From contig NBAY01000007.1 of assembly GCA_002794775.1 (NCBI GenBank), positions 1,168,649-1,232,648 on the forward strand: DNA of 64,000 bases, given 5' to 3'. The translations under genes and the position numbers were made by a program. This stretch comes from Porodaedalea pini (taxonomy: Eukaryota > Basidiomycota > Agaricomycetes > Hymenochaetales > Hymenochaetaceae). Position 1 is the stretch's first letter. Each line of letters opens with the position of its first letter. The notes beneath the pieces are model-generated. The model worked only from the letters and a program-made list of their open reading frames with translations, was not told the origin of the DNA and ran no database searches. Shown here piece by piece: positions 7,058 to 63,892 of this stretch.

Positions 7058-7298
7058 ACTAACTAAAAACCAGCAGCATTCAAAAACTGATTAAAAATTT
7101 CTCCAAAAGGTGCAATTCGAGAATCCAGAGTGATATGATTGAGTAGACAAGAGAGGAATATGAACATGCCAACAAGTGATTTCAGTGATAAGGGCATCTG
7201 TCCAGAGCAAGGAGTGACTAAACATGGGAGTAGGGTAAAAGAAAGAAAGAAAGAAAAAGAAAAAGGGCAGGAATCCGAACTTAAATATGTTCCAAGAT

Positions 7299-8010: not shown

Positions 8011-9320
<1,310 letters not shown>

Positions 9321-11755: not shown

Positions 11756-12062
11756 CGAAGGGGATATAGTCAACTAGCTGTTGTTGTATGATAGATCCGA
11801 ATAGATGGCCCGTCATCGCGAGTTCGCACGGCAGGTAGAACGTCTGGAAGAATTTGGATTCGTCGAAGAGGAAGTGGTGCATGCAAGGGAAGATTTCGTG
11901 GTCGCGCGGTTAGTAGATTTCTTACTGCATTGTAGCACGATGATGACTTGGTCGATCGTGATCTGTTCGCCATACATCTGCTTTAAAATGCCGTCGACCT
12001 CTGCTTCAATGTCAGAGGAATAGCTGATGACAGTGAATGTAGGCTCCGAGTTTCCGGCGCCA
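11756..12062 (-). pseudogene. NOT1 (CCR4-NOT scaffold) fragment
   Basis: Reads EAEVDGILKQMYGEQITIDQVI, then in another frame FACM..-like sequence: MHHFLFDESKFFQTFYLPCE and LAMTGHLFGSIIQQQLVDYI. This is the MIF4G-region signature of fungal NOT1, the scaffold of the CCR4-NOT deadenylase. Only about 90 residues remain, with one frame change near 11890. One open frame (11463-11882) runs from NOT1 straight into MUB1 sequence. Confidence 0.75.
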
Positions 12063-12790
12063 GGATAGTCTTCACGATTTCGATGGAGATGTAAAGAGAG
12101 CTCGGAACGATGTTCTGAAATGCAATCAAGCAAGACCTACAGTCAAAGATCAGTAAGCGATCGCAGAGGGAACCATAAAGACACTCACACGAAAGTAACG
12201 ATTGCATTAACGGCCGAAGAGCTCGACGGATCGCTACCCTGTTCAAAGAAATGTGCACTAGTATCCGACTTACTGTCCATAACGCCATTAGCAATGCCCG
12301 TCGCAAGACACATAAGAATCAGAAAAGTTCGTCTCCCGTTCGATTTTGCTCCGTTTACTAGGCGTGCTCCCACTGTTCAACATAATCTTCATGTCCGCGC
12401 CAGTGAATGCAACTAAGCCAATAATCCACGTTGTGTTTCGCATTGAACATCCACGGAATAGCATCTCGTTGATGGTCGCCGGCTCGACTTTCTCTGCCCC
12501 CGCCTCGTGCTCGCGGTATCTCAGCACGCCATTTTAAAGGTACAGATTAGCGTGCGGCGGTTCGGAGTCCAGGACGAAACTTGCATGCTCAATGTCTTCC
12601 TCGCTCTGCAGAGATGATGTCGCCTTCAATGACCGATGAGGCTTCAGATTCGTTTCGCCATCCAGGTTCTTCGTCTCCAAATAGCATAAGCCATCCTCTT
12701 CCGAAGTAGAAAGGACAATGATGTCGGCCGGCACTTGATCGTTATTGCGCAACAGAACAATGTCTCCGATTCGAGAGTGTGCGTTCCCAA
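12063..12790 (-). pseudogene. P4-ATPase (aminophospholipid flippase, Dnf/Drs2 type) fragment
   Basis: Contains the A-domain region GDIVLLRNNDQVPADIIVLS, YLETKNLDGETNLK and DSEPPHANLYL, then NGVLRYREH..., MLFRGCSMRNTTWIIGLVAF and the membrane segments FLILMCLATGIANG and SCLIAFQNIVPSSLY. Flippases move phospholipids to the cytosolic leaflet. The piece stops before the phosphorylated Asp (DKTGT), so it has no catalytic core. It is broken by TAA replacing a Tyr codon at 12534-12536 and by a deletion after ETNF. Its start is fused in frame to the BTB gene near 12790. Confidence 0.9.
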
Positions 12791-14230
12791 CGTGCCGTAC
12801 CAGGTGCCCGCCCATTCCAATCGACGACGCCAATGGACTTACGCGAAAGAGTGGTAACCACTTCATGCACCAGCCCTCTCCGAAAAGACCAACAAGGGCG
12901 CGCCGCACGCCACGCTCAAGGTATGTGTTCTGCACGTCTGGACGCACGGAAAACGCGAGCGTATGCGGTGCGCGACGTGCACACTGGCGGCAGCGAGACC
13001 CACCTGTGCCCCAGCGACCTCCAGTGATACGTTCATACTCAGCAAATTCGAGGAAAGCGTGGAAGAGCCCATGGAGCATCTCCTGCACGATGCGTGCCTG
13101 CACCTTGTCATGGAGCGTCTGCAATTGAAGATAGTTCGCGGAGCACAGGATAGCGAAAGCGGTGTCCAAGTCATATGGACGGTCGCTGAAGCTGAGCGTT
13201 TCGGTGTATGAGTATCCTAAGGAAAAGTGCAGCGCTGGAGGAACAAAGGGAGGTGAGGGAAGGCAAAGGGTCGTGAGCTCGCCGGGGCCAGGGGTATTCT
13301 TGAGACCATAGGTGATGAGTTGATCGCAGAAATACGGTGCACGCGTTACAAGAACAAAAAATCGATGTGAGCAGAAGACGGCGGTCGTCTCTTCTTCATT
13401 GGAAGGAGCACCTATTGTTGGCATATCGCTGTGTAGTTCAATGCGAACGTCAGAATACAGACGAGACCTCCACACGAACACAAGGTCCTCGCGAAGCTTG
13501 TCGACGCGTGCCTCTTCCACATTGGCGTCGCCTTCCCGGCCCTCCTCATTCGCATCGAACAAAAACTCAAACACATCCCCAAATCCCTTTCCTGTATAGA
13601 GATACTCGAGCTCGTTGGTGAATAACACGGGATTATGGTTGAGAGATATGCGCGTGAGGGAGCCGATTACAGAGGGCGCAGGGGAGATAGGCCAGAATTG
13701 GGAAGGTGAAGTGGAGCACATTGAGGCGGTAGGGGAACTCAACGCCAAGGTTGAGAGAGTGTGCAGATGTTGTCGGCATTGGAAGTGACAATGTCGGAGA
13801 GGCAGCGAAAGGAAGTGGGGACACGATAGGTGTCGGGCGGAACGAGAAATAGTGCGCCTGGGAACTGAGTAGTGCACGAGCATAAATGATAGCTAGCATT
13901 TGTTAGTCTCAAGGACAGGTGGTAGGTTCTGCGCTTGTGCTCACCTTTATGTCCCCGAACCTCCGAGTCCGCGTTGCGGCCTTTGTCCATCGCGTCCTCA
14001 TCCATTAGATCCCAGACGTCGTCTGGGAAGCAATCCTTCGCGCGATGAAAGAGCGATTGGAGGTCCTCTTGCCATGCTGTTGTCGACCTCTTCGTTGCCT
14101 CGAGCAGTGCAGTTGGGCAGGCAGGCAGCTGTGACGGGACGGCTACCAAGACAAGCAGTGATGTAGTGTGATAAAGAAAAAAGCAGAGAAATCCCAAGAG
14201 AAAGGTGAAGGAGACAGACTCGTCGACGGT
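12791..14230 (-). pseudogene. BTB/POZ domain protein fragment (copy A)
   Basis: The 5' part has FHRAKDCFPDDVWDLMDEDAMD and, across a GTGAGC...GCTAG intron, a HKAIIYAR-type BTB core. The second part has FTNELEYLYTGKGFGDVFEF..., LYSDVRIELHSD, FCSHRFFVLVTRAPYFCDQL and YDLDTAFAILCSANYLQLQT, typical of large fungal two-BTB proteins. Copies B, C and D carry shorter pieces of the same gene, so this is the longest version here. From 13883 to 12534 it forms one 449-codon open frame together with the flippase fragment. The function of the parent gene is unknown beyond the domain. Confidence 0.75.
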
Positions 14231-14607
14231 GCCTCCCACTGAGGTTGGAGATCATGTTGGCACTGTCGTCAACTTTGCTTTCGATCCATTTTTAATTCAA
14301 CCAGGCCACTTTATTTTACCAAAAATACATAGACAGACAAAGAATTGTCTGAAGTTTTTTTACATGCCTCAAGCTTGAGAATCGGATGGTTGAATAAAAT
14401 TAAATATGCCAACAAAGAAAGTGAGCACTGTACAGCCACAAAAGCAGTGAATGACTTCATCGCCACTGCTCAATTTAGCAGAAAAGGGGTCCAAAATTAA
14501 CATATATGGTATGCCATCAGCTTATAAAAGCTGACAAAAACCCAAATTGGGCTCCCTAACTTTGCCCATAACAAAAGACGATACTTCGTAAACTCAGTAA
14601 TCGTAAC
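14231..14607 (-). repeat. Shared terminal segment, copy A
   Basis: Non-coding segment starting GTTACGATTACTGAG at 14607 on the - strand and running toward lower coordinates. It is nearly the same as the starts of copies D (22802), C (25772) and B (33953). It contains small potential hairpins, including ACGAT(T)ACT paired with AGTATCGT and a CAGCTT...AAGCTG palindrome. It inserts next to a transposase remnant. Confidence 0.85.
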
Positions 14608-17315: not shown

Positions 17316-18524
17316 TTGTCACCGGCACCATCAACGTCCACGGTGCTTCTACCTCCAACTCCAGGCCCTTACTGTGAGGCTCGTAGAGACCTTTCACCAC
17401 CAACCCCCCCTGAACCTTTGATGCCCATGCCCAAACCCGCAATGTCAGCAGGAGGTTTCAGTCAGCAGCAGATGGAGCAGATCGCGGCCATCGTCGCAAA
17501 CGCCTTCACCCATCAGGCGAACAACGCCCCAGCACCAGTCGCAGCAGCTAATCCCCCGACCCCCAGCATCGACGTCGCCCGGCCACGTGAATTCACTGGC
17601 GGCAACGATTATTTAGACTTCAAACGAGAAGTCCTTCTTTTCGTCTCAGCAAACCCAAACCGATATCCCACGTCGGAGAGTAAGATATACATTGCTCTCT
17701 CCTACTTAAAAGGAGGCAATGCAGAGACGTGGGCACAGAATTATGTGGAGGAGTCGACATCGGCAGGCATTGTGACCTTCACTGACAGTTGGACGAGGTT
17801 CCAAGAGCACCTAGACGCCTCGTTCGACAATCCGAACCAGAAGGAAAAGGTGCTGGCAAAGTTCTGAACCAAGGTTCAGAAAGATCTCACTGCCGATGAG
17901 TTCTTCCAGGACCTTGATGTCATCATCACAAGAGCGGGACTGACAGATGACAGCATCATCTGCAACCGCCTGAAGAGGGCAATGAACATCGAGGTGGTGC
18001 GTGGAGTGCTGAGGTCGACGCCGGTTCTGACAACGTATGACGACTGGAAGAAGAAGGCCATCGAGATCAACCGAGGCGAACAGCAAATCTGCGCAATCCA
18101 GTGGGGTCGCGCATTCCCGCCCCCACTGTGTCAGCAGCAGCAACAGGCACCCCCAGCTCGCCATCAGATTCCCACCCCCCACGTCAACAAACGTGATGCA
18201 ACCAGCGTTACCTTTGGAGGCGCCAGCCAGCTGATGGATGTCTCAATGAATGAGGTGCAGCGCCGACGCACGTGCTGGATCTGTGGCCAGCTTGGTCACT
18301 TCAAGGATGCATGCCCACAAGGGAAGACGATCGTGCAGCGTATGCTGCAGATGATGGTGCCCGGCAAATGTTGCCTCCTCACCGATGAGCTAGGGGCAAT
18401 GAAGGAATCGGCATTTGAGGAAGTCGTAGACACTCAAAAGGCAACAGTGGAGGACTATGTAGAGGAGGAAGGAGATGACGAAGAGGTCGTTGACTCGCAG
18501 GATTTTGCGAGTGGTCAGGCGTAG
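17316..18524 (+). pseudogene. gypsy-1 Gag
   Basis: Pro-rich N-terminus, Gag core (REFTGGNDYLDFKREVLLFV...KIYIALSYLKGGNAETWA), a Gln-rich linker and one CCHC zinc knuckle (CWICGQLGHFKDAC). It forms the virus-like particle and packages RNA. An in-frame TGA at 17865-17867, probably from a Trp codon, splits it. The true start codon is uncertain: 17316 is TTG, and the first in-frame ATG I see is near 17420. Confidence 0.85.
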
Positions 18525-18655
18525 CCATCGGGGCGACTGACCGAGAAGAACAAAGGGCTTCGTATCCGGACTCGATAAAATATAACCAACCGTCTGTACA
18601 ATATGTAGATGCAAACGATGTCGATGGTTTTCCCAATTACGAAGTCCTCACCGGT

Positions 18656-19141
18656 GTGAACGAGAAAAACGAGTACAAGCAATTGTTCATGAGGGGAACT
18701 GGTGGACGCCAGCTGGACCTCCTCCTGAATGTCGGATGTAGCATGGAGGGTGAGATGAGGGAGGTGGATGCACATGCCCTTGTGGACTCAGGGTGTACGG
18801 GATCATGCATTGACATGAGGTTCATCGAACAATATGGATTAGAAACCAAGCGATACATCCGACCCCTCGCAGTGCTCAATGCAGACGGCACGCACAACGA
18901 GGCCGGGTTGATCAAAAACTACATTGATGTCGAATTAATGATCGGGCACCACAAGGAAAGGATTGTCCTTGCGGTAACATCCCTAGCGTCATCAAACATA
19001 TTCCTTGGTTACGACTGGCTTCAACACCACAATCCAGAAGTCGACTGGAAGACGGGTTCAATTAAATTCACCCGCTGTCCAGAGGAGTGTGCGATCGAGA
19101 AGGAGGTTGCAGAAGAGATGAGGAGGGTGAGAGAAGTGTGA
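18656..19141 (+). pseudogene. gypsy-1 protease
   Basis: Retropepsin with active-site VDSGCTGSCID and downstream IFLGYDWLQHHNP, as in Ty3/gypsy proteases. It is cut from the reverse transcriptase by a frame change at about 19100-19141 (the next frame opens upstream of this stop), so Pol is not made as one chain. Confidence 0.85.
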
Positions 19142-22801: not shown

Positions 22802-23160
22802 GTTACGATTACTGAGTTTACGAAGTATCGTCTTTTGTTGTGGGCTAATTTTTGGAGCCCAATTTGGGTTTTTGTCAGCTTCATAGGCTGATGGCATACC
22901 ATATATGTTAATTTTGGACCCCTTTTCTGCTAAATTGAGCAGTAGCAATGAAGTCGTTCACTGCTTTTGTGGCTGTACAGTGCTCACTTTCTTCATTGAC
23001 ATATTTAATTTTATTCAACCATCCAAATCTCAAGCTTGAGGCATGTAAAAAAACTTCAGACAATTCGCTATCTGTCTATATACTTTCTGTAAAATAAAGT
23101 GGCCTGGTTGAATTAAAAATCAGTCGAAAGCAGAGTTGACGACAGTGCCAACATGTGATC
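22802..23160 (+). repeat. Shared terminal segment, copy D
   Basis: Starts GTTACGATTACTGAG. Same order of blocks as the other copies: GCATACCATATATGTTAATT, CACTGCTTTTGTGGCTGTAC and GTGGCCTGGTTGAATT. The flanking base context (CTTGA before the terminus) differs from copies A-C. Confidence 0.85.
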
Positions 23161-23825
23161 TCCAACCTGGACGGTCTGTTTTGCTGCAGCAAAGACACTT
23201 GCTTCACTCCCTCCACTTGAGCTGAATCATCTCCTTCACTTTTCTCTTGGGCTTTCTCTGCTTTTTTCTTATTCACACAACATCACTGCTTCTCATGGTA
23301 GCCGTCCTGTCACAGCTGCCTGCCTGCTCACCCATGCTGCTCGAGGCAATGAAGAGGTTGATGACAGCATGGCAAGAGGACCTCCAATTGCTCTTTCATC
23401 GCACAAAAGATTGCTTCCCAGATGTCGTCTGGGATCTAATGGATGAGGACACGATGGACAAAAGCAGCAATGTGGACTCGGAGGTTCAGGGACATAAAGG
23501 TGAGCACAAGCACGGAACCTTCTACCTGTCCTTGAGACCAACAGATGCTAGCTATCATTTATGCTCGTGCACTACCCAGTTTACAGGCATGCTATTTCTC
23601 ATTCTACCCAGCACCTATCGTGTCTCCACTTCCTTTCGCTGCCTCTCAGACACCGTCTCTTCCAATGCCGATGACATCTGCACTCTCTTTCAACCTTGGC
23701 ATTGAGTTCCCCTACCTGTCCTCCATGTGCTCCACTTCACCTTCTCAATTCCGGCCTATCTCCCCTGCGCCCGCTGTATTCGGCTCCCTCACGCACATAT
23801 CTCTCAACCATAATCCCGCTTGGAC
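23161..23825 (+). pseudogene. BTB gene 5' part (copy D)
   Basis: Contains LLFHRTKDCFPDVVWDLMDED, an intron (GTGAGC to GCTAG, about 23500-23550) and then IIYARALPSLQ..., the start of the BTB core. It continues to SLTHISLNHNPA, where copies A and B go on into the rest of the BTB gene. Here it switches to eIF4G at about 23825. Confidence 0.65.
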
Positions 23826-24822
23826 CGCTCGACCTCTCCTCAACTCACAAATCCATCCCTCAACCTCTCCCATCTGCCCTTGCTACCACTTGCCACATCC
23901 AAGATGTTTACCAGGTCCGGTATCTGGAAGGCATCAAGAGTCCCAAGCTAGAGCTTAATACGAACATGAAGGATGGCAAATTCCAGTTCGTATTTATTGT
24001 CTCGCTTTCTTTCCATGACTAACAAGTTAACACTATATTTCTGCGATTAGCTATGATCGAGACTTCCTTCTCCAATTCATGTCCATGTGCAACGAAAAGC
24101 TGTACAATCTCTCTCCTCTTAAGGCTATCGGTCTCGAGTCATCCGACCAATCGCACTCTATGGGATGGGGTGGCTCTGGACACCAAGGTGTATCTGGTAG
24201 TATGGGCCAGCCATCTTCCACTGCTTCAAGGCAAGCATCAATTGGGCTTGGCATGGGTGCTTTGAACGGCTTCGGCAGCGAACCTGGTTCAGGCTTTGCA
24301 ATGAGCAACTTCTCTGCACTGAACAAATTGTCAAGTGAAGAGTGCTGCATGCACTCGATGTCAATGAGTGATGGGCCCAGTGGCCTTCCATTAGCAAGTG
24401 GGCACCCATCACCTATTGTTCGCTCTTCCAGTCAGGATGGTGCGGGCGCTTTGGGCAACAAGTGTACGTGTAGCAAACGTGGCAACTCAACATGCAATGA
24501 GTCAAACCAAATCTGCACTTCTGCCAATCAGTTCAACATGAATGCTGCTTCCTCCATCAAACCTGTCATGCCACTCGAGCAGTCTGCGAACTGCTGGGTC
24601 ATGGGGAGCATGTCCAGGTGTGGGACCTCGAATGACCCAGACCCACCCAAGATCGTGGACAAGAAGGTCCGTTCACTGCTCAACAAGCTCACTATGGAGA
24701 AGTTTGAGTCTATCTTAAACCAGATCATTGTGTGGGCAAACAAGAGTGAGAGCAAGAAGGATGGGCGTATGCTTATTCAGGTCATCCGGCCTGTGTTCGA
24801 GAAGGCAACAGATGAGGCGGCT
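23826..24822 (+). pseudogene. eIF4G (translation initiation factor) fragment
   Basis: Reads LPSALATTCHIQDVYQV..., an intact 65-nt intron (23986-24050, with CTAAC branch site), then [16 protein letters not shown]. After a Ser/Gly-rich stretch come the MIF4G start [29 protein letters not shown] and [16 protein letters not shown]. eIF4G is the scaffold of the cap-binding complex. The frame from 24079 is open and runs without break into PRP8 sequence at about 24822. Confidence 0.85.
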
Positions 24823-25771
24823 GGAGTAACCCTGTCTCCTCTCATGGTTTCCAACCAAAGAATGCACCTCATTTCTCATGAGGATGAAATCTTCGGACCC
24901 AATGGCGCGGACGAGGATGGATTCGAGCTACCAGATGAGGTTGAGCCATTCCTATTGGATAAGGATTTGGAGAACGAGAGCACTGCGGACAGTATTGCAT
25001 TATGGTGGGTGCCGGCATCTTACAGTCGCCACTCGGGACACATGTGCCATGCACAAGATGTACCATTGGCGAAGAATTGGTACTTGAGGCACTGCCCACT
25101 GAACCAGCCTGTAAACATTCACATGTCGTACCAGAAGCTACGCAGGTGCTTTGTTCTTAATGAGCTGAAGACGAGGCCGGAGAAGCCGATGACAAAAAAG
25201 AACCTGTTCCATCAGTTGAAGGTGACAAAAAATTTCCAGACCACAAAGCTGGACTGGGTGGAGGCTGGCTTGCAAGTGTGCAGGCAAGGATGCAACATGC
25301 TGAACTTGCTCATCCGTCGCAAGGTATGATCCTTGGGAAAGCTGTGTTATATCATTCTGACTTCCAATCCTTCTAGAACTTGAATTACCTTTATCTCGAT
25401 TACAAGATGAATCTGAAGCCAGTAAAGATGCTCATGACGAAGGAACGCAAAAAGTCTCACTTTGAAAATCCATTCCATTTGTGCCGTGAAATTCTTCACC
25501 TCATGAAGCCCGTTGTCGATGTGCATGTCCAATTCCAGCTAAGCAATGTGGATGTCTTCCAACTGGCGGATGCATTGCAGTATATCTTCGCACATATCGG
25601 CATGCTCACCGGCATGTACTGTTACAAGCCAAACATATGTGTCAGGTCCAGATGTGCAAGGATCTCAAGGATCTGATCTACTATCGCTTCAATACGGGAC
25701 TTGTTGGTAAGGGCCTAGGCTGTGGGTTTGGGGCTCCAGGCTGGCGAGTGTGGCTCTTCATGCGTGGAATT
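24823..25771 (+). pseudogene. PRP8 fragment (copy D)
   Basis: Reads [55 protein letters not shown] and, after a GTATGA...TCTAG intron (about 25326-25377), [17 protein letters not shown]. It goes on to [20 protein letters not shown]. The last part is frameshifted but recognisable ([17 protein letters not shown], then [11 protein letters not shown]). This is N-terminal of the piece in copy A. Many substitutions fall at strongly conserved PRP8 positions, so it has been drifting. Confidence 0.9.
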
Positions 25772-26150
25772 GTTACGATTACTGAGTTTACGAAGTATCG
25801 TCTTTTGTTGTGGGCCGAGTTAGGGAGCCTGATTGGGGTTTTTGTCAGCTTCATAAGCTGATGGCATACCATATATGTTGATTTTGGACCCCATTTCTGC
25901 TAAATTGAGCAGTGGCTATGGACCGACTCACTGCTTTTGTGGCTGTACAGTGCTCACTTTCTTCATTGACATATTTAATTTTATTCAACCATCCAAATCT
26001 CACCCTTGAACCATGTAAAAAAACTTCAGACAGTTCTGTATCTGTCTATGTATTTTTGGTAAAATAAAGTGTCCTGGTTGAATTAAAAATCGGTCGAAAG
26101 CAGAGTTGACGACAGTGCCAACATGTGATCTCCAACTTGCAGTTGTCGAC
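25772..26150 (+). repeat. Shared terminal segment, copy C
   Basis: Starts GTTACGATTACTGAG right after TGCGTGGAATT of the PRP8 fragment. Same block order as in the other three copies. Confidence 0.85.
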
Positions 26151-26356
26151 GAGTCTGTTTCGCTGCAGCAAACACACTCGCTTCATTCCCCACTTCCGTT
26201 CACTGCCTCTCCGACACCGTCTCTTCCAATGCCGATGACATCTGCACTCTCTTTCAACCTTGGCGTTGAGTTCCCCTACCCCGGCCTCCATGTGCTCCGG
26301 CAAGCTCAGCTTCAGCAACCGTTCATATGATTTAGACACCACTTTCGCTATCCTGT
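26151..26356 (+). pseudogene. Short BTB gene pieces (copy C)
   Basis: Two non-adjacent BTB stretches are joined. One reads PLPFTASPTPSLPMPMTSAL in one frame; the other reads LSFSNRSYDLDTTFAIL, jumping over more than 600 bp present in copies A and B. Internal deletion after capture is the simplest reading. Confidence 0.6.
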
Positions 26357-26842
26357 CCACCTCATCCGCCCTCGCGACCGACATCCTCGCTCTCGATTGT
26401 GTCAATGTCCAGCAGCAGGAGCAGGGCTTCAACATGCGAGTCTACATTCAAGACGCCTCGCGAGAATATGACTCCGCGCGACTCTGTTACTCGGTCGAGG
26501 AAAGTCTCGACCACGTCAACGACCTCGATGCGCAGCACCGGAACCTCAAGATCTCCTAAAACGCCGGCGCCGGCGCTACCTAAAGGACGGCTGCATCACG
26601 TCTCTGAAACGAGTGCGGCACCAATTAGTACGGTAAACGTGGCGTCATGCACAGGGAAGGTGTCGCCCAGTACTACAGTGTCTACGAAAACAACAGTGAA
26701 CAAGACGCCCGTCATTCGAAAGTCACCGTCGGCGAATTCAATTCGATCAGATGCATCTGTGGCAACAGCTGGAGGGGAAAAGACAGCGATGAAGAAGTCC
26801 CCTGCAGTTGATGAGAAGAAGCCTTCTCCGGCGAGGCCTCGC
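26357..26842 (+). pseudogene. Ser/Arg/Thr-rich fragment of an unidentified gene (copy C)
   Basis: Reads MSSSRSRASTCESTFKTPRE, then NMTPRDSVTRSRKVSTTS and a long S/T/P/K-rich run to KKPSPARPR. No domain. It could be the basic N-terminal part of the CAP-Gly protein found downstream in copies A and B, but nothing here proves it. The junction with the BTB gene (FAILS|TSSAL) is identical in copy B. Confidence 0.5.
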
Positions 26843-28715
<1,873 letters not shown>

Positions 28716-28779
28716 GTTCACTTCAGGCTACCCCTCTGAGCAGACCAAGTAGGTCTATTCGTACACACAACTAATTGAC

Positions 28780-29075
28780 CATTTAGGTATTGAGCCTGGG
28801 CGTGCCCAATCCCCTGGGCACTCCCAGTGGGTGCGGGTTGGGTGTGCCCAATTTTTTTTACTGTGGGAAAGTTGGGTGCACCCAGATCATTGGGGCACTC
28901 CCAACTGGGCCTGCCCAGTTTTGGGGCACTCCCAACTGGGCCTGCCCAGTTTTGGGGCACTCCCAACTGGGCCTGCCCAATTTTTGGGCACACCCAGTGG
29001 GAGTGCCCTGGGAGTGCCCAGATATGTCACTGTCACTGACTGTCTGGGGGACTTCTGGGTGCACCCAGTTTCATT
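28780..29075. repeat. GC-rich foldback repeat cluster 1
   Basis: Built from palindromic blocks such as GGGCACTCCCAGTGGG and its complement. The middle holds three tandem copies of a unit of about 30 bp (GGGGCACTCCCAACTGGG, then CCTGCCCAGTTTT). Left and right parts are roughly inverted. Frames across it are repeats, not genes. Confidence 0.8.
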
Positions 29076-29954
29076 TTTTGCTATAAATTCTGGGATCATC
29101 ACAAATGCTGTAATTTTTAGTTTTAGATCCTAAACCTTGGTGTATTTGTTACTATTTAGACTATGAAAAATTGACTGCATGAGTTGACCCTTGCTGTGAG
29201 CTATGTTAGGGTTGATAATGATCTAGGATAGAGATTGGTATCATTTTATCTATGATTATGACTGTAATTTATAGCTATATCCTACTGTTGAGCTCAGATC
29301 ATCATGGTATATAGTACAAAAGGCTCATGTGACAATCAAAATATGCAAAGTGCAGAAAATATATGGAATATATGAGAGACTAATGGTATATGTTGTTCAA
29401 AATTATGGATAGACTTCTTGCAGCAATGATCAAGCTCATCATTCTAACAGTATATGCTTGTATCACTCTAGATAATAAACAGAGAGGCTATGCAAGGGTT
29501 GAATAGGGTTCAAGCAGGAACTCAATACCAAGATGGCAGTGCTTGAACCATAAGTTCCAACTAAACTGTGCTCTACTCCTTCTGGAAACTGTGCAGTCTG
29601 CCATTCTGATCAACAGTGTGTCAAATGGTACAACATGAGGCCCATCATCTCAGTGCCACTGGTACATATTATGCATCAACATGAACCAATTCATGTCTGC
29701 AAACCTATTGGATCCATTTGTGCCTTACTGGGGTAAACCCTATCACTGTACAGCTGCCAGAATATCTGGCTGATTTCCTGTAGCTGGCACATGTCCCTCC
29801 ATTCAGTGCATGTTTCATCTTCTCATTCTGGCAGCCCACACTTACATCTGTCCCACCAAATATGACTAAAGAATTTTCAAGAAGTATACAGGTGTGATCC
29901 AACTTTCTGACCTGCAAAAGACTATCTGACTACTGCACGATGTGGATGATCCTA
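29076..29954. other. AT-rich, no gene seen
   Basis: Low-GC sequence with short frames only, no motifs and no long repeats. Probably intergenic or old transposon DNA beyond recognition. Confidence 0.5.
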
Positions 29955-30120
29955 TTGTTTGGGAGCCCCCAACTGGGAGTGCCCAATTATCTGGGAGTCC
30001 CCAACTGGGAGCCCCCAATTGTCTGGGAGCCCCCAATTGTCTGGGAGCCCCCAATTGTCTGGGAGCCCCCAACTGGGAGCCCCCAATTATTTGGGAGTCC
30101 CCAACTGGGAGTGCCCAAAT
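29955..30120. repeat. GC-rich foldback repeat cluster 2
   Basis: Tandem 18-bp units close to CTGGGAGCCCCCAATTGT, repeated about three times and bracketed by CCCAACTGGGAGTGCCCAA-type blocks. It shares the CCCAACTGGGAGTGCCC word type with cluster 1 but has its own unit. Confidence 0.8.
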
Positions 30121-31289
30121 AACTCACAGAATCACTTCAGAAAAGTTGTTAATCTATTTTTCAACTGGTTCTGAATGTATGTGAACTTGGAGGGCAGAAT
30201 GCGTGATATTGAGGCTGTAGTAGTGAGAATAGGTGTTTTTCTAGCAAAACTCCTTCCCAAAAATTTCCTGAGCTCAATTTTGAAGCTAATAGCATGAAAC
30301 TTGGTGGAGAATGGTCTGTATAATGTATCTTGAATTTAAGATGGCTTATAACAATGCAGGCAGTTTTTTAAAGACAGTCCGAGTCAAGTAAATTTGGGTG
30401 AGTTTGAGAGTTTCAGCACAACAGTCAAGCAGGACAAGAGGAGACATTCACTCTAGTTCATCCCAAGCTCAACATACATTCAGAAGCAGTTGAAAAATAA
30501 ATTTAACAACTTTTTTGAAGTGATTCTGTGAAGAATTGACTGAGATATGGATTTTACAAGTTTTTGAGATGCTCAGATGCTCAAATTTCATGCTCTTCAT
30601 GTGTCTCAAGACTTATGAAAAAAATACTGTAACAAGAACCAGTGAAGAATTGAAATAGATATTGATCTTTGAAGCTGAAAGTACACTCTTAATTTATTTA
30701 AAAAAATGGTGATCATGTGATGTGCATATACTCTTTGAAAATAGCCGTAACAGGTCCACCTAAATAGCCAAGTCTAAGAAAATAAACTAAAAGGACACCA
30801 GAAAAGGCAAAACTTGTGTCTGACGCAATGAAGAGAACAAGAGCACAGCAAGGGCAGACCGCCCAATGAGTTATCTTATAATCTGAGCATAAGGAACCAA
30901 TAGCTGAAAAGACAAGAAAAAAAAATGAACTGAGCTGACGCGTGAGTACTGTATTCAATGAGAGACCGGAAGTCGTCCGAACTGACCAGTGTATGAAAAT
31001 TAAACAGCCTAAGCAGTGCAGAGGCTTTTGAAAACTCTTATGTACCTATCTGCATGAGTAAGTCTTATGGTTATATATGTTTATGCTGTCATTGTATACA
31101 GGTTTTGTGCTAGCTCGGACGGGTGGCAAGTTTGTTTGTATATATTTACAACAATGAATATAGTTTGCAAGCCGCCTGAACGGATTGCCAGAAGTAAAAA
31201 TTAGTGTTTCCCATGCATTAACTGCAGAAGCAGATGTGATATAGATTAGGACATGCTTAGGAATTAGAATTAAGAATTACTTAGCTATC
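30121..31289. other. AT-rich, no gene seen; one solitary repeat unit
   Basis: No gene supported. A single unit of the tandem repeat found at 32186-32610 lies at about 30817-30897 (GACGCAATGAAGAGAACAAG...TCTGAGCATAA). Confidence 0.5.
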
Positions 31290-31925
31290 TTGCTCGTCGT
31301 CAAAGAATTCGTTGTTGTCCTATACCTTCACCGAAACGAAGCTCATTCTCATACAATGGGCAGGATCACACTACCGTCAGTCGCTATCGGCTCGGCGTAT
31401 TACCTCAGCTACTATCCTCGTCGGGACTCCTCGTCCGTGTCGCCGCCGCGATCCTCGCTATCCGATTCACCGAGCTCTTCGGCCATTGACCCTCGCGCGT
31501 CGGGCTCGAGCACCAAGAAAGTGCGCGGTCGGAGGTAGTTTGTCCGCCGAAGTGGGAGGCACTTGTGACGAGTGAGTACGAAGCACTATTTTTTTTTTTG
31601 CGTCCGTCTCGCCCGTTCTCCCCTGTCCGTGGCCTATTCATGATCTCGGGTTGGACATAGCGCGGTCGGAGTATCCCTAACATGGGCTTGAGCTTGGTCG
31701 ATACGCGAACTGGGAACGCGAGAGGTTCGAAGGAGGGGGCTGGAGAAGAGAAGGTTGTGATTGTGACTGTTGATGACGGAGGTGCGGAGGCCGTAAATAT
31801 GGTAGAGGACGGCCGTAATTGCTGAGAGCGCGGTGCATACAAGACCGCGCCGGAGTATGGCATTGAATACTTCTCCCAGCGTCTCCAGCAAGGGCGCGAC
31901 GGATCGAACGACTTTGAATGCAAGC
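31290..31925. other. GC-rich island with open frames on both strands, unassigned
   Basis: This island is clearly richer in GC than its AT-rich surroundings. Longest frames: 31923-31405 on the - strand (172 codons, S/T/P-rich) and 31290-31538 on the + strand (82 codons, with a Ser/Arg-rich tail ending KKVRGRR). A - strand frame at 31891-31634 has a possible membrane stretch (GLVCTALSAITAVLYHIYGL). I recognise no family. It may be another captured exon, as its composition resembles the host-gene fragments. Confidence 0.3.
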
Positions 31926-32185
31926 GTCAGAGATCAGTGGAAGATTATAAACCTAAGAAAAAGGCAACTTTGAAGCACATAATTAAACATCTCTCGCATT
32001 CGAAACCCGAAGGCTAAGTTAAGATGCATACCTTGTTGAGAAGTGGCTGACCGGGTGTCGGAGTAGTCGTAGGTTTCCAGTCATCTGTACTACTTGATGC
32101 TTTCTTTTCCCTCTTTCACTTAAAGTCCTGTACAATTGTATATTTAGTCAGTGAGTAATTTGTGCGTAAGCTGGATGGGCTGCGA

Positions 32186-32610
32186 CTGACGCGATGAAGA
32201 AAACAAGAGTACGGTGAGGGTAAAACACTCGATGATCTCACTTGAAATCTGAGCGTAACAAGTGGTCTTCTAACAAAAATTGAATTCAGATTAACGTGAC
32301 GAAGAGGATAAGAGTGCCGTGAGGGCAGAGTATCCGATGACCTATCTTAATCATCTGAATGTAAGAAAAAGACTCAATGTTAAGACATTAAAAAAAGGAA
32401 TCTGCGCTCAGCGCGATGAAGAGAATAAGAGCACGATGAGGGTAAAGTATCCTATGATCTATCTTAAGTATCTGAGCGTATGACAAAGACTCAATGTTAA
32501 GACATCAAAAAAAAATGAATCTGCACTCAGCGCGATGAAGAAAGTAAGAGCACAGTGAGGGCAGAGTACCCTATGATCTATCTTTATATCTGAGCGTAAC
32601 GAAGGGCTCC
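32186..32610. repeat. Tandem repeat of about 110 bp, four diverged units
   Basis: Each unit has the order GCGATGAAGA, AATAAGAGCAC, GTGAGGGCAGAGT, ATGATCTATCTTA, TCTGAGCGTAA and then an A-rich spacer. Units start near 32190, 32300, 32405 and 32522. A lone unit lies at 30817-30897. No coding function is apparent. Confidence 0.75.
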
Positions 32611-32639
32611 GGAAAAACAGAACCCTGTTAGAATGCACC

Positions 32640-33952
32640 CTAGGACCAATCAAAGTCCTGGCGCATGCTGCGGAAGTGATACCCTTCCTGCTCGTCTCCA
32701 CTGACCTCGCGCTCAGACCCATCATGTTCGTAAATGGTTGGAACACTACGCTGAACTGTATTCTGGCGCGCTCCTGAGGGCCGCGACGAGGAGCCCTGCA
32801 CGAATTCCGGTGGGAAGCGTTGGTTAGGCCTGTCGGAAATCTTTCTTCTCTTCACGGGTCCCCATGGCGCGGTCTCAGATCGATTATCGGAGAGAGATTC
32901 TTGTCAGAGACTTGGCGTTTGGCCTGCACTTTGGATTGCCCGACATCATGAAGATTAAACAGTACAGGCTGGGAGGATGCTCTCGTGGGATGAGACGTAA
33001 GATCAGACTGCTGCGCCAGAAAAGCAGCAGCGCTAGTCTGTGGAACTTCATGAGGCCGTTGTAATGGCAAGTTTGAGTATGGCGGCGTGTCTTGCTGGCT
33101 TGCATGGACGCGGGACTCAGGGAAGTCGAGACGAAGGTGACGACCGGATGACTTCTGCGCCGTAGTTATGCCGCGATGGATGTCGGTTGCATTATTCTGC
33201 CTCGCACGGGAAGGACGTCTCTCGTGCTGATGGCGAAGGGAGTCGACAGGAGTTTCGGATGCATCGGGTGAAAGCTCATGAGACACAAATTGGGTGGTCA
33301 CTACGGGGGGTGAATGCGGCTGTATCATGTTGACAGGTTCACCAAACACCTTCTCCCAGACTTTCATGAATGCCGGCGAGTCTTTGTGTGTCAATAGTGT
33401 CTCAAGCTGATCATCATCACGTATGACAAGTGGGAGGATGGCCAAGTCCTCTAGCTTTCTGCCATCATATTCTAATTAAGGTTGAGTCCAATGTTTGTTA
33501 ATGAATGACACAGAACTCACCCTTTGAAGAATCTATCACACGGATGATCTTACGTCCACCAGGCAGACCAGCTACACGGCATCGGTCAAACTCGATTAAC
33601 TTGTCGTTCATCCAGTGCACGTCTTCACTTTTGAGGTTCTTCACGAAGTCAGGTTTCTTGGGCGCTGTTTCGAAGGGAATATTCTCGGGCCAGACGAGGA
33701 CCATGCGATTATGATAAAAGTGGTCAGTGAAGTTGGTCCAGCTGACACGATACTTGTTGAACTGGAATGATTTGTCACCCTGAAGTCGGCCGCAATCAAC
33801 TACAGAGCGGTGAGCTCATGAGTGAATACATAAGAACGAGATAGAACTGACCTATCTCATTTGCGAGATGCAACCGGACGTTGGAGCGACACTGGTCTTT
33901 AGAATACTTCTCGCCTTCATCAGGATCCCACATCAACTGCGGCCTCGCAAGT
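32640..33952 (-). pseudogene. Conserved fungal hypothetical protein, 5' end cut off by copy B
   Basis: Exons 33952-33852, 33799-33521 and 33471-32852 join in frame: LANEI|VDCGRLQGDKSFQFNKY, then RVSWTNFTDHFYHNRMVLVW, PENIPF and further on EYDGRKLEDLAILPLVIRDD, then a Ser/Gln-rich disordered tail. The RVxWTxF...MVxxWPxxxPF block is one I associate with a large, uncharacterised Agaricomycete family, so no function is assigned. A one-base shift near 32852 separates a basic C-terminal part (KRRKISDRPNQRF to DFDWS, stop 32640) that probably belonged to it. Exons upstream of 33952 are missing because copy B starts there. Confidence 0.55.
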
Positions 33953-34330
33953 GTTACGATTACTGAGTTTACGAAGTATCGTCTTTTGTTGTGGGCAAAG
34001 TTAGGGAGCCTGATTTGGGTTTTTGTCAGCTTTTATAAGCTGATGGCATACCATATATGTTAATTTTGGACCCCTTTTCTGCTAAATTGAGCAGTGGCGA
34101 TGAAGTCGTTCACTGCTTTTGTGGCTGTACAGTGCTCACTTTCTTCATTGGCATATTTAACTTTATTCAACCATCCAATTCTCAAGCTTGAAGCATGTAA
34201 AAAAACTTCAGACAATTCTCTGTCTGTTTATGTATTTTTGGTAAAATAAAGTGGCCTGGTTGAATTAAAAATCGGTCGAAAGCAGAGTTGACGACAGTGC
34301 CAACATGTGATCTCCACCCTTGCGGTCGTT
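33953..34330 (+). repeat. Shared terminal segment, copy B
   Basis: GTTACGATTACTGAG start, with CAGCTTTTATAAGCTG palindrome at about 34028-34043 and the same blocks as copies A, C and D. Confidence 0.85.
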
Positions 34331-35457
34331 GACGAGTCTGTTTTGCTGCAGCAAAGACACTCGCTTCACTCCCCCATGTGATCCTCAGCGGAGGCACACC
34401 TGAGTTGACTTGTCTCCTTCACTTTTCTCTTGGGCTTTCTCTGCTTTTTTCTTAATCACACTACATCACTGCTTCTCATGGTAGCGGCCCCGTCATAACT
34501 GCCTGCCTGCCCACCCGCACTGCTCGAGGCAACAAAGAGGTCGACGACAGCATGGCAAGAGGACCTCCAATCGCTCTTTCATCACACGAAAGATCGCTTC
34601 CCAGACATCATCTGGGATGTACTGGATGAGGACGCGATGGACGAAGGCAGCAACGCGGGCTCGGAGGTTTGGAGACATAAAGGTGAGCACGAGCACAGAA
34701 CCTTCCACCTGTCCTTGAGACTAACAGATACTAGCTATCGTTTATGCTTGTGCACTACCCAGTTCCCAGGCGCGGTATTTCTCGTTCCGCCCGGCACCTA
34801 TCGCATCCCCACTTCCTTTCGCTGCCTCTCCGACACCGTCTCTTCCAATGCCGACGACATCTGCACTCTCTTTCAACCTTGACGTTGAGTTCCCCTACCC
34901 GGCCTCCATACGCTCCACTTCACCTTCCCAATTCCGGCCTATCTCCCCTGCGTCCTCTGTAATCGGCTCCCTCACGCGCATATCTCTCAACCATAATCTC
35001 GCGTTATTCACCAACGAGCTCAAGTATCTCTATACAGGAAAGGGATTTGGGGATGCATTTGAGTTTTTGTTCGATGCAAATGAGAAGGGCCCGGAAGGCG
35101 ACGCCGATGTGGAAGAGGCACGCGTCGACAAGCTTCAGAAGGTCTCGTCTGTATTCTGACATTTGCATTGAACTACACAGCGATATGCCAACAATAGGTG
35201 CTCCTTCCAATGAAGAAGAGACGACCGCTGTCTTCTGCTCACATCGATTTGTTCTTGTAACGCGTGCGCCGTATCTCTACGATCAACTCATCACCTATGG
35301 TCTCAAGAATACCCCTGCCCCCGGCGAGCTCACGAACCTTCGCTTTCCCTCGCCTCCCTTCACTCCTCCAGCACTGCACTTTACCTTAGGATGCTTATAC
35401 ACCGACACACTCAGCTTCAGCAACTGTTCATATGATTTGGACACCGCTTTCGCTATC
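34331..35457 (+). pseudogene. BTB/POZ domain protein fragment (copy B)
   Basis: Same gene as in copy A: HHTKDRFPDIIWD-like start, HKAIIYAR-type core across the intron, FTNELKYLYTGKGFGDAFEF, LYSDICIELHSD and FCSHRFVLVTRAPYLYDQL, ending at DLDTAFAILS. Part of the frame change before LYSD is a small deletion relative to copy A. From 35458 it is joined to the Ser/Arg-rich piece exactly as in copy C. Confidence 0.75.
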
Positions 35458-35940
35458 CTGTCCACCTCATCCGCCCTCGCGACCGACATCCTCGCTCTCG
35501 AATGTGTCAATGTCCAGCAGCAGGAGCGGGGTTTCAATATGCGAGTCTACATTCAAAACGCCTCGCGAGAATATGACTCCGCGCGACTCTGTTACTCGGT
35601 CGAGGAAAGTCTCGACCACGTCAGCAACCTCGATGCGCAGCACCGGAACCTCAAGATCTCCTAAAACGCCGGCGCCTGCGCTACCGAAAGGACGGCCGCA
35701 TCGCGTCTCTGAAACGAGTGCGGCACCAATTAGTACGGTAAACGCGACGTCGCGCACACGGAAGGTGTCGCCCATTACTACAGTATCTACGAAAACAACA
35801 GCGGACAAGATGCCCGTCATTCGAAAGTCACCGTCGGCGAATTCAATTCGATCAACTGCATCTGTGGCAACAGCTGGAGGGAGAAAGACAGCGACGAAGA
35901 TGTCCCCTGCAGTCGATGAGAAGAAGCCTTCTCCGGCAAG
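35458..35940 (+). pseudogene. Ser/Arg/Thr-rich fragment of an unidentified gene (copy B)
   Basis: Close relative of the copy C segment: SMSSSRSGVSICESTFKTPR and on to DEKKPSPAR, frame 35432-36010. No domain. Likely basic and disordered; possibly the N-terminal part of the CAP-Gly protein (inference only). Confidence 0.5.
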
Positions 35941-38204
35941 GTATCGCGTGCGACTTATGCCTTACTCTAGTACATGTTTATCCACCTTTAACTCATGGTA
36001 TGGTCGCTGATTAGTGTATTTTAGCCTTTCGTCTAAATCTTTCCGTCACTCCACCGTATGACGCCGATTTCGATGGCGATGAGATGAACAAGCAGTATGT
36101 CACTTTTAAGATTAGCCTTACATCTCTTTCTCAGCTCCGTCTAGCGTTCCTGAGAGCGAAGAGACGAGAGCCGAGTTCAGTCAAATTGCATAGGTTGCAA
36201 AGCAGATCATCTCGCCGCAGGTGAACAAACCTGTTATGTGCATCGTACAGGACACGTCGTGCGGTGTCCGGAAATTCACTCTGCGAGATAGCTTCCTCGA
36301 CTGGGTGCAGGTGCAAAACATCCTGCTGTGGGTGCCGGACTGGGACGGCACGATTCCGACGCCGGCGATCTTGAAGCGGAAGCCATTGTGGACGGGCAAA
36401 CAGATTCTTAGCATGACGATTCCTCGCGGAATAAACGTATATCGCTCGCCTGATCCGAAATCTTCGAGCCCCGTTTTCGACGATGGCATGCTCATTGAAA
36501 ACGGCGAGATCATCTTTGGTATCGTGGAGAAAAAGACGTTGGAGCGTCGCAAGGCGGTCTTATCCACGTCGTCTTACGCGAAAAAGGTCTCGAAGCGATT
36601 CGTACACCGTTCACTGGTCTCCAGTAGATCGTTAATCACTGGCTGTTCCACAATGGATTCAGTATAGGCATTGGTGATACGGTCGCGGATAGGAAGACAA
36701 TGGCGTACATCACGGAGCAGATCAAGATGCGGAGGCAGAATGTCGTGCAGGCCATTGAAGATGTATCTAACGACCGTCTGAAAGCTGCACCGGGTATGAC
36801 TATTTGCGAGTCGTTCGAGAGTCGAGTCGGACGCGATCTCAACTTGGCGCGTGACCACTCCGGTCAATACGCAGAGAAGAACCTGAAGGAGGAGAACAAT
36901 GTCAAACAGATGATTGTCGCGGATTCGAAGGGTTCGTTCATTAACATCTCGCAGATGTCCGTCTGTGTTGGTCAGCAGTCCGTTGAAGGGAGGTGAATCC
37001 CGTTTGGCTTCGGACATCGCACACTACCTCACTTTACGAAGGATGACTTCAGCCCAGAGGCGCGCTGTCAAGACGGCCGAGACTGGTTACATTCAGCGTC
37101 GACTTGTAAAGGCACTCGAAGACGTGGCTGTCTGCTACGACGGGACTGTACGAAACTCACTGGGTGACCTGATCCAATTCGTGTATGGCGAGGATGGTAT
37201 GGACGGTGCTTTTATTGAACGGCAAACGATCAAAAACGTTCGGTAGCAATGATCGCGAGTTCGAACATCGCTATCGGGTCGACGTCATTTTTTTTCACTA
37301 GTGTTTTGCAAGTCGGTATCGATGACTCATCCCTCGAGCTCCAGCAAAAACTCGACGAGGAATATGACCGTCTTCATGAGGATCGTAAATTGCTCCGTGA
37401 ATTCATTTTCCCGGGCCGCGACAATTCCACTGCCCACTATCTTCCTGTCAACCTGAACCGTATCGTGCAGAACGCAACGCAGATTTTCCATATCGACCGC
37501 AGAAAACCGAGCGATCTGGAGCCTGTGTACATCATTGAGCAGGTGCAGCAGCTGGCAGACCGCCTGATCGTTGTGCGCGGCGATGATCTTTTAATAAAGG
37601 AGGCTGCCGAGAACGCTTCTGTTGCATTCCGCATGCACCTTCGGGCGACTTTTGCCGCGCGTCCAATCCTAGAGGAGTTCCATCTCAACAGAGAAGCGTT
37701 TGACTGGATCTTGGGCGAGGTGGAGACAAAGTTCAACCAGTCGGTCGCTCATCCGGGCGAGATGTGCGGCACACTCGCTGCCCAGTCGATTGGTGAGCCG
37801 GCGACGCAGATGACACTAAATACCTTCCATTACGCTGGTGTTTTGATTAAAAAGTCACGCTCGGTGTGCCGCATCTTAAAGAAATCATCAACGTCGCCTG
37901 AATATCAAGACTCCGTGTACCTGGACCCAGAAATTGCTGGTGTCGACACGAGGGCCAAGTCGGTGCAAACAGAACTTGCGTACACATTGCTGCGTACCGT
38001 TACAGCGGCGGTCGAGATCTACTACGATCCTGATTCAAGTACCACGATCATTGAGGATAAGCATTCTTCGCCATCTCCGACGAGGAAATTGAGTCGGGTC
38101 TTCATCTTCAGTCGCCATGGCTACTTCATCTTGAGCTCAGTCGCTCGAAGATGCTTGACAGGAAACTTACGATGAACTACGTTGCTGGCCGTATCGCGGA
38201 AAGC
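35941..38204 (+). pseudogene. RPB1 fragment (copy B)
   Basis: The most extensive RPB1 piece. It runs from MPYS, intron, [20 protein letters not shown] (Mg-binding loop; the usual first Asn is Asp) through the bridge-helix region to the trigger loop ([19 protein letters not shown]) and [10 protein letters not shown]. It is broken by TAG at 36191-36193 (Trp expected), a frameshift near 36540, TAG at 36625-36627, TGA at 36994-36996, a deletion of about 90 bp near 37063 and replacement of a short segment by a T-tract near 37290. From 37290 to 38175 the frame is open. It has no CTD. Joined to the CAP-Gly gene at 38204 as in copy A. Confidence 0.9.
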
Positions 38205-38952
38205 TTTGCCATTGCCAAAAATGCCATCTAAGGAAAATATTGACCCTGAAGATCCTCCCAGTACAGGTAGTACATTGACGATTAAAGGGAAGGGGAAGGG
38301 GAAAGGGCGGGTGGATGCCATCATCGCAGACGACAGATCTCTGCGATCGAGCGACACCGGATCAAATACAACTCTCGCTACATTGCGGCACAAGGAATCG
38401 AATGACACCATTACCCTCAATCGAGTACCTGCGGGGGAGACGGTGTCTGCAGGCGAGACGGTCATGCTGCAACCCTGTGGTGCTACATTGGACATCGGCA
38501 TTCCACGTATCATTACTTCAAAGTGGAAGCGGTTCCATGCGTTTGCCCGTTATATCGGCGAGGTTGAGGGTGAGAGCGGGCCATGGGTTGGTGTCGAGGT
38601 GCCCGCGGGCGATGACTGGGCAGACGATCAGCTCGAGGGCCGCCAGTGGAATGACAGCTCATGGGGTGGCGTGCGCTACTTTGACGTCTGGACTTTGGCA
38701 TCGGAATGGGGCGACGACCGATGCATGACCCGCCGGCAACATGTTGATTTGATGAATAACTATGGAACTAGCATTATTAGTGGCTGGAAGGGCACAAAGC
38801 GCGAGGGGGAGCAGCTCAGCATTGACCGCAAGAAGCGTTTCCGTAGCACGTCACCGTCAGTGTCGGACGTGTCGAACGTGGAGTATCGAGGTCTCTTTGT
38901 GAGGCCACAGCAGGTGCTGTATGTTGTAAATGCTGTCGGTTCGGGCTTGTGA
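38205..38952 (+). pseudogene. CAP-Gly domain protein fragment (copy B)
   Basis: Open to its natural stop (TGA 38950-38952): [15 protein letters not shown], Lys/Gly-rich stretch, CAP-Gly core (RYIGEVEGESGPWVGVEV...LEGRQWNDSSWGGVRYFDV) and a C-terminal extension ending QQVLYVVNAVGSGL. It is better preserved than copy A, with an extra PAGETV repeat. It could be translated only as part of the RPB1 fusion frame or from an internal Met (38182 or 38221). Confidence 0.7.
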
Positions 38953-39324
38953 ATCTTGGAACATATTTAAGTTCAGATTCCTGCTCCTTTTCTTTTTCTT
39001 TCTTTCTTTCTTTTACCCTACTCCCATGTTTAGTCACTCCTTGCTCTGGGCAGATGCCCTCATCACCGAAATCACTTGTTGGCATGTTCATTCATATTCC
39101 TCTCTTATCTACTCAATCAGATTGCTCTGGATTCTCGAATTGCACCTTTTGGAGAATTTTTTAATCAGGTTTTGAATGCTGTCGGTTTTTTAGTTAGTAC
39201 ATTTGTGTTCAGTTTCTGTACAAACAGCATTCTTGTGCCTCATGCAATAAGTTAGAAGTCATTTTGGAGTATGTTAGCACACAGATGAGTTGTACAGATG
39301 AGTTGTGCATTGCATTTCAATTGG

Positions 39325-39504
39325 ACTTGAGGTAGTGGGCCATTGGGATGGCAAGCTACGATTACTGTTTTCTGTATCTTTCATTTTATATGAGAAGACT
39401 AAAGCTTGAAAGTTATACTAAAACATTATTCTCATTAGTGAATTATTTACTATTCAGTAAACAGTAATCGTAGCTTGCCATCTCAATGGCCCACTACCTC
39501 AAGT
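39325..39504. mobile_element. 180-bp MITE, copy 2
   Basis: Same 180-bp length and same + strand orientation as copy 1 (6878-7057), with differences at only a modest number of sites. It lies in the ninth exon of the gene on the - strand and supplies that gene's stop codon (TGA at 39501-39499). The gene-fragment blocks next to the two MITEs are in opposite orientations, so the two insertions look independent. Confidence 0.85.
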
Positions 39505-63880: not shown

Positions 63881-63892
63881 GACTCAGATTGG

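Follow-up and report, generated by a model that had tools for sequence, protein, structure and literature searches.

Element copies in the window

The DNA analysed here, referred to as the window, is a 64,000-nucleotide stretch of Porodaedalea pini (contig NBAY01000007.1, positions 1,168,649 to 1,232,648) that forms the end of contig C7; the genome searched comprises 53.3 Mb in 201 contigs. The window contains two complete copies (6878-14606 on the minus strand and 33954-39504 on the plus strand) and two 5′ ends without 3′ ends of a family of mobile elements that carries host gene fragments and very probably belongs to the non-canonical Helitrons. The copies and their termini are as follows.

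6878-14606, minus strand: complete copy 1, 7,729 bp, with its 5′ end at 14606 and its 3′ end at 6878 (the last T is host or shared)
6878-7057, minus strand: palindromic 3′ terminus of copy 1, 180 bp (from sequence and predicted fold)
14577-14606, minus strand: 5′ terminus of copy 1, a hairpin and one arm of an asymmetric terminal inverted repeat (terminus match; the same sequence folded)
22803-25771, plus strand: copy 2, 5′ end and body, interrupted by copy 3
25773-28720, plus strand: copy 3, inserted with its 5′ end in the PRP8 fragment of copy 2; the body can be followed to about 28720
33954-39504, plus strand: complete copy 4, 5,551 bp, both termini present
39325-39504, minus strand: palindromic 3′ terminus of copy 4, 180 bp, in an orientation relative to the element opposite to that in copy 1

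The size of copy 1 is matched by five other pairs of 5′ and 3′ ends (7,722-7,725 bp). The first-pass annotation of this DNA had placed the right border of copy 4 at 39324; the 180-bp palindrome follows directly, and the element ends at 39504. A long terminal repeat retrotransposon stops about 250 bp upstream of copy 2, and imperfect repeat arrays of the GGGCACTCCCAACTGGGCCTGCCCA type (28883-30150) directly follow the recognisable body of copy 3.

The four 5′ ends share an exact match to GTTACGATTACTGAG (14593-14607 on the minus strand; 22802, 25772 and 33953 on the plus strand), with no other match in the window at up to two mismatches; four matches were reached in 0 of 100 shuffles. About 370 bp are common to all four, at 91-93% identity. 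The common starting base and the shared non-coding segment had both been noticed in the first-pass annotation, which also counted the leading G as part of the terminus. We assign this base to host DNA (G in the window copies, A or T in others), and the element starts TTACGATTACTGAG. The 5′ end can be written R|TTACGATTACTGAGTTTACGAAGTATCGTC and contains a hairpin and the first arm of the asymmetric inverted repeat. Its first 29 bases are predicted to fold as the hairpin described earlier, and the CAGCTT..AAGCTG palindrome is present nearby.

A genome search with the 379-bp segment from 22802 recovered a dispersed family (144 candidates, of which 40 were scored, on many contigs). When an 18-base piece of the terminus is searched with up to one mismatch allowed, the genome gives 126 matches, four of them from one tandem array, and the reversed control gives none. 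A Gypsy gag gene at C77:170607-170699 is interrupted by a tandem array of four 5′ termini, with a repeat unit of 25 bp.

3′ end, target and empty sites

The 3′ end consists of CAGTAATCGTA and a further 31 nt that finish in CTCAAG|T, which gives the family both of its ends. A hairpin (GCCAT-CCNA-ATGGC, also GCCAT-CCCA-ATGGC) is predicted from sequence and fold 13 nt from the element end. The inverted repeat that the first-pass annotation did not see is 11 bp long, TACGATTACTG against CAGTAATCGTA, terminal at the 5′ end and 31 nt internal at the 3′ end, and was reached in 2 of 20,000 shuffles of the 5′ piece. In most 3′ ends seen, the last 180 bp form a palindrome, here called P, in which a core separates an inverted 3′ end from the 3′ end proper. 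In its place C79:33392 and C75:160850 carry a single 3′ arm, and the arm at C79:33392 meets the body at the common letters AAACAG.

Three empty sites span exact joins, and all three lie in this window.

17877-18262, plus strand: empty site of the 6.2-kb C72 copy (Gypsy gag), 386 of the 400 joined bases align at 76%, gapless
50758-51201, minus strand: empty site of the copy at G000:C143:24808, in a retrotransposon, 444 bp over the join at 98%, gapless
51576-52176, minus strand: empty site of the copy at G000:C1:2988016, alignment over the full 602 joined bases with 581 identities

The C72 copy sits in a Gypsy gag gene that resumes 6.2 kb on. The site for C1:2988016 has one gap a few bases before the join, and the join itself is exact. 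From these sites, the element ends CCTCAAG|T, with one T common with or belonging to the target, and there is no target duplication, as the first-pass annotation had also found. The complete window copies 1 and 4 are not among the copies with empty sites. The target is N|T, mostly R|T: the base before TT is G in 15, A in nine and T in two of 26 collapsed flanks, and the uninterrupted flank homologues that reach the insertion point read AT, GT or GTT there.

Excluded as empty sites were C133:29148 (truncated 5′ end), C75:171165 (unmatched 3′ flank) and other joined flanks. A candidate 3′ end at C5_1420001:2095 proved to be an insertion point within an RPB1 fragment, and two candidate simple insertions (C77 2886 + 11316 and C62 2556 + 10415) were rejected for mismatched flanks.

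Distribution, movement and exchange

The first 1.87 kb of the copies in C56 and C198 and of one copy in C77 are 99.7-99.9% identical to C72, with unrelated flanks, which points to recent movement. Copies also share flanks in mixed combinations: C171 and C143 have a common 5′ flank and differing 3′ flanks, C143 and C1 have a common 3′ flank, and C1 and C41 have only the 5′ flank in common. Exchange between copies is the simplest reading of these mixed flanks, and it suggests that copies also recombine ectopically.

It is most improbable that the family arose by subtelomeric segmental duplication and ectopic recombination, with no transposition and with the terminus as a recurrent breakpoint. 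The 5′ ends do crowd contig ends: on C1, C5 and C7, 15 of the 16 listed lie within 100 kb of a contig end (0.11 of the sequence), and on the 13 contigs longer than 300 kb this is so for 34 of 44 (0.25 of the sequence). In addition, some copies agree in one flank only, and the pairs C72/C67 and C54/C128 have common flanks. Duplication is contradicted by the three empty sites with exact joins. Also against it are the conserved inverted repeat, the target preference and the abrupt borders, which fall on one and the same base while the flanks are unrelated in most of the copies fetched. C26 is an exception to the crowding, with none of its five listed 5′ ends near a contig end and all of them more than 200 kb away. 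The first-pass annotation had regarded confinement to one chromosome end with extended homologous flanks as the mark of plain duplication; the matches are instead spread over 42 contigs (100 listed of the 126), and the flanks of fetched copies are mostly unrelated.

Degenerate TTAGGG telomere repeats (63889-64000) lie directly after a truncated Gypsy-type pol frame at the window end, and because of these repeats the window is probably a chromosome end. The window also encodes a protein whose relatives carry the name glucan 1,3-beta-glucosidase; its named database matches come mostly from agaricomycetes, the best of them from Coniferiporia, Sanghuangporus, Mycena and others.

Captured gene fragments

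Open reading frames (ORFs) in the family carry PRP8 (PROCN) and RPB1 domains and CAP-Gly; MIF4G and E1-E2 ATPase fall below cut-offs, and BTB was recognised by eye only. The window copies carry the following fragments.

7537-10116, minus strand: copy 1, CAP-Gly-like (7537-8043), RPB1 (8387-9307) and PRP8 (about 9205-10116), from ORFs by eye
Within 22803-25771, plus strand: copy 2, PRP8 (24976-25323, Pfam) and sub-threshold MIF4G (24661-24819)
27195-28752, plus strand: copy 3, RPB1
Within 33954-39504, plus strand: copy 4, RPB1 (37219-38175) and CAP-Gly (38176-38952)

Fragments of copy 1 were named by eye from ORFs and from DNA similarity to scanned fragments. The PRP8 fragment that the first-pass annotation reported as a flank was verified. 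There are 116 PROCN matches in the genome. Three PRP8 pieces (C5, C54 and C23) are 88-94% identical to the gene that we take to be the host PRP8 (C12:642277-649381, by best PROCT score), and the C54 piece is located between a 5′ end and P. The C23 alignment crosses an apparent intron, which indicates that PRP8 was captured from DNA.

PROCN matches with an identical score and the whole domain in one stretch occur at G000:C3:1602627-1603949, C3:1611767-1613089 and C196:7054-8376; the two on C3 are close together and mutually inverted.

Link to a RepHel gene and classification

Helitrons encode RepHel, a protein that joins an HUH Rep to a PIF1-like helicase. The genome contains 10 Helitron_like_N matches at 8 loci. 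A RepHel frame of 1,369 amino acids in C128 contains DUF6570 and Helitron_like_N, and a frame in C54 contains PIF1. The 120 relatives listed are 44-52% identical, and PIF1 is often part of the same polypeptide. A 5′ end of the family faces RepHel from the helicase side, 11-19 kb off, at 6 of the 8 loci, which places the RepHel gene antisense to the element. A 401-bp segment from the RepHel C-terminus has 15 matches (all 15 candidates scored), 13 of them at least 200 bp long. Eleven of these 13 have an antisense-facing listed 5′ end (ten at 7.4-8.5 kb, one at 15.2 kb) and one has a sense-facing 5′ end. Long blocks between the 5′ end and RepHel are 97-99% alike among C54, C79 and C5, and the RepHel copies in C79, C62 and C5 have 5′ flanks that differ from those of C54/C128. 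In C105, RepHel is followed by P at the expected place 8 kb on, and the contig stops before any 5′ end.

No endonuclease domain, the feature that would mark a Helentron, was found in the two RepHel ORFs scanned (C128 and C54), with the C-terminal part outside the scan. At L026:6279-9290 the RepHel frame runs well past the helicase, and by eye its C-terminal part recalls a cysteine protease.

The 3′ end, the asymmetric inverted repeat, the hairpins, the lack of target duplication and the RepHel link place the family among the non-canonical Helitrons. With Helitrons in general the family shares RepHel domains, precise joins with no target duplication and a predicted hairpin near the 3′ end; with the Helitron2-like or FoHeli-like type it shares an asymmetric terminal inverted repeat, here of 11 bp. 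From these structural features we consider it very probable that this is a new family of that type. Canonical Helitron1 (5′ TC, 3′ CTRR, A|T target) was rejected, given 5′ TT, 3′ CAAG and an N|T target. The lack of TC...CTRR ends, already remarked on in the first-pass annotation, does not exclude a Helitron of this non-canonical type. In such an element, the antisense-encoded RepHel of long copies would nick the 5′ end, if it is the catalyst; a single strand would peel off, presumably by rolling circle, and stop at the 3′ hairpin; and the freed strand would join into N|T sites without target duplication.

We consider it very unlikely that the family is a terminal-inverted-repeat element, a Crypton or another non-Helitron element with a non-RepHel transposase, in which RepHel is a passenger or an insertion target; no search aimed at DDE or tyrosine-recombinase genes was made. 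Against it, the ends are asymmetric and come without a target duplication, and at 11 of 13 copies a 5′ end has RepHel antisense behind it (7.4-8.5 kb away in ten), the five RepHel copies with known 5′ flanks having four distinct ones. In its favour, RepHel or neighbouring body DNA does contain the P ends of sense-opposed copies (C54:208962, C77, C79 and C62), and no complete RepHel copy with both ends was found.

Several findings count against the Helitron assignment. The search found neither a RepHel copy that has its two ends together with an empty site nor a solved structural relative of the Rep half at E 0.01. Two of the 13 segment copies (C25 and C106) have no listed facing 5′ end, a second 5′ end in C62 faces RepHel in sense at 11.8 kb, and one in C77 does so at 18.3 kb. 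Because C54 and C128 have the same 5′ flank, four insertions stand behind the five RepHel copies whose 5′ flank is known. Copies 2 and 3 have no 3′ end within the window, and ten of the 40 scored P have no listed facing 5′ end. Flanks are mismatched at C62, C77, C75, C143/C171 and C41, for which recombination is offered as an unproven explanation.

The palindrome as a possible reusable terminator

For P, 40 of 109 candidates were scored. A 5′ end faces P within 12 kb at 30 of the 40, and an outward-pointing 5′ end occurs at 9. The pairs of 5′ end and P measure 5.5-8.7 kb in 28 of 30 cases and cluster near 5.6, 6.2 and 7.7-7.9 kb; most of the paired copies are short and carry fragments of host genes. 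Relative to C72, and with respect to the nearest facing 5′ end, P has the same orientation in 17 pairs and the opposite one in 13, with three pairs assignable to either strand. The captured CAP-Gly tail is cut at differing points before the 3′ end (C72, copy 1, copy 4, C79, C38:22995 and C42:36879).

Junctions between P and the body were counted if the body side was backed by a facing 5′ end or by recurrence at loci that differ on the other side, and if an uninterrupted homologue was available. There are six distinct body junctions.

C72
Copy 1 (with C77, C26, C133 and C75)
C105:75371 (with C54:208962)
C25 (with C42:132690)
C38:22995
C42:36879 (with C143:30284 and C75:181735)

The last of these was read directly against copy 4, as BLAST ended 11 bases short. 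Among the 14 junction pieces, C26, C133 and C75:179627 repeat the copy 1 junction, C41:46049 and C77:177879 have no homologue, C54:208962 is the target side, and the P border is absent in C48:320298 and C5:1415772.

The native base before P is A at all six junctions. The bases after it are G, C, C, C, C and T, a pyrimidine in five of the six, and the opposite strand reads R|T, the family's own target, at 5/6. The outer border of P therefore looks like an ordinary antisense 3′-end insertion. Since most of the 3′ end is a palindrome in which two 3′ ends oppose each other, an outer copy may gain a sense-strand terminator from an antisense insert. An antisense copy ending in P would insert into the outer copy, the second, sense-strand arm of P would provide a new terminator, and the next transposition of the outer copy would stop at the inner P arm and give a shorter daughter. 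Such a history would account for the exact border, for the A and the pyrimidine at the junctions and for both P orientations. We tentatively propose, as a possibility short of a probable one, that the palindrome makes termination independent of orientation and turns an antisense insert into the new 3′ end of the outer copy. Long copies that bear RepHel may then give rise, over repeated rounds, to a nested series of shorter daughters that carry genes, and the terminator would change orientation in each round.

As the proposal predicts, copies that end in P lie antisense within RepHel-bearing DNA or the body DNA next to it at C54:208962, C77, C79 and C62. The stretch C54:217109-208962 was rejected as a two-ended copy stopping in RepHel, as its palindrome is more likely the 3′ end of an opposite copy. 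This opposite copy, from C54:201513, is 7,629 bp long, has a body junction in common with C105:75371 and lies against RepHel DNA.

Other observations fit the proposed terminator poorly. Both junctions are intact at none of these four loci, and no intact intermediate was found. At C54:208962 the P-ended copy abuts RepHel DNA antisense, and the other half of the RepHel site was not found beside it. A also precedes P at five other junctions (C106:50482, C106:15637, C38:89978 and the P-in-P cases in C66 and C75), where the next bases are C, T, T, A and C; these were not counted because the body side is unproven and an ordinary target side also gives A.

P is unlikely to be a palindromic transposon in its own right that inserts into bodies and supplies a 3′ end only incidentally. 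Such a transposon would account for both orientations of P at several body positions, for P beside or inside another P in C66 and C75, and for the ten scored P of 40 that no listed 5′ end faces. The outer ends of P are the element's own 3′ end, P lies at the host junction in all three copies with empty sites, and among fetched loci no P lies between two contiguous halves of one body. Insertion of P as a unit by the same rule also predicts T as the next base, and T occurs at one of six comparable body junctions.

Two further palindromic features were observed. About 250 bp of the 5′ end abuts palindrome pieces beside another palindrome piece at G000:C75:82570-83400, possibly a minimal element. 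A palindromic repeat distinct from P, about 855 bp long and about 90% self-complementary over its length, occurs at G000:C54:259522-260373 and 264349-265921 (C54_247001 12522-13373 and 17349-18921), and has inserted repeatedly in RepHel-bearing copies, several times within C128.

How 3′ borders are gained and lost is the open step in Helitron gene capture, and this family provides a natural series for it: a single body terminated in different places by one and the same palindrome, at junctions whose bases are open to testing. If the proposal is true, the palindromic terminator is a self-propagating means of re-terminating Helitrons. The family is also an example from an agaricomycete of Helitrons whose inverted repeats are asymmetric; fragments of essential genes (PRP8 and RPB1) are carried in many copies, often near contig ends. 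Copies with PRP8 and RPB1 fragments will mislead gene annotation, and the family may drive exchanges between chromosome ends.

Comparison with known systems

The first-pass annotation had proposed an undescribed gene-capturing mobile element. Its mobile end and gene capture hold; the kind of element is a known one, the non-canonical Helitrons, of which FoHeli1-5 of Fusarium oxysporum are examples in the consulted part of PMC5148889. Like FoHeli1-5 as presented there, the family has an asymmetric inverted repeat whose 3′ copy lies some tens of bases in from the end, a 5′ hairpin, a 3′ hairpin (in some FoHelis) and non-autonomous derivatives. The tandem 5′ ends at C77 resemble the multiple 5′ termini of some FoHelis, and the antisense RepHel resembles the inverted transposase frame of FoHeli4 and FoHeli5 (PMC5148889, same excerpts). 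The FoHeli1-5 termini given in that part (TCAG...ATTTT or TGCCT...CTCCTGT) are not matched here: FoHeli1/2 have TCAG or T[c/a]AG...ATTTT between TNAT and A, whereas this family has TTACG...CTCAAG in N|T. In the same excerpts of PMC5148889 gene capture by FoHelis is limited and a 180-bp palindromic 3′ end is not reported; this family has both captured gene fragments and such a palindrome. In the literature searched, with no query aimed at a palindromic double 3′ end as such, we met no description of a reusable palindromic terminator, which does not show its absence from print.

HELPO1/HELPO2 of Pleurotus ostreatus (PMC4289320, consulted in part) are similar in having an Agaricomycete host, RepHel, captured genes, a subterminal 3′ hairpin and no target duplication. 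They differ in their T[C/G] 5′ ends, CTRR or CTTG 3′ ends and AT target, and the part consulted describes neither an asymmetric inverted repeat nor a palindromic terminator for them.

Helraiser / Helibat, according to the excerpts of PMC4778049 used here, also has a 3′ hairpin as terminator, in a canonical element with TC...CTAG ends in AT, unlike this family. Bypass of that terminator and new 3′ ends, some through insertion beside other Helitrons, drive capture and shortening there; the antisense route proposed here is not described in those excerpts. The Helraiser / Helibat terminator is a short 19-bp hairpin (PMC4778049, same excerpts), whereas the palindrome of this family consists of two opposed 3′ ends.

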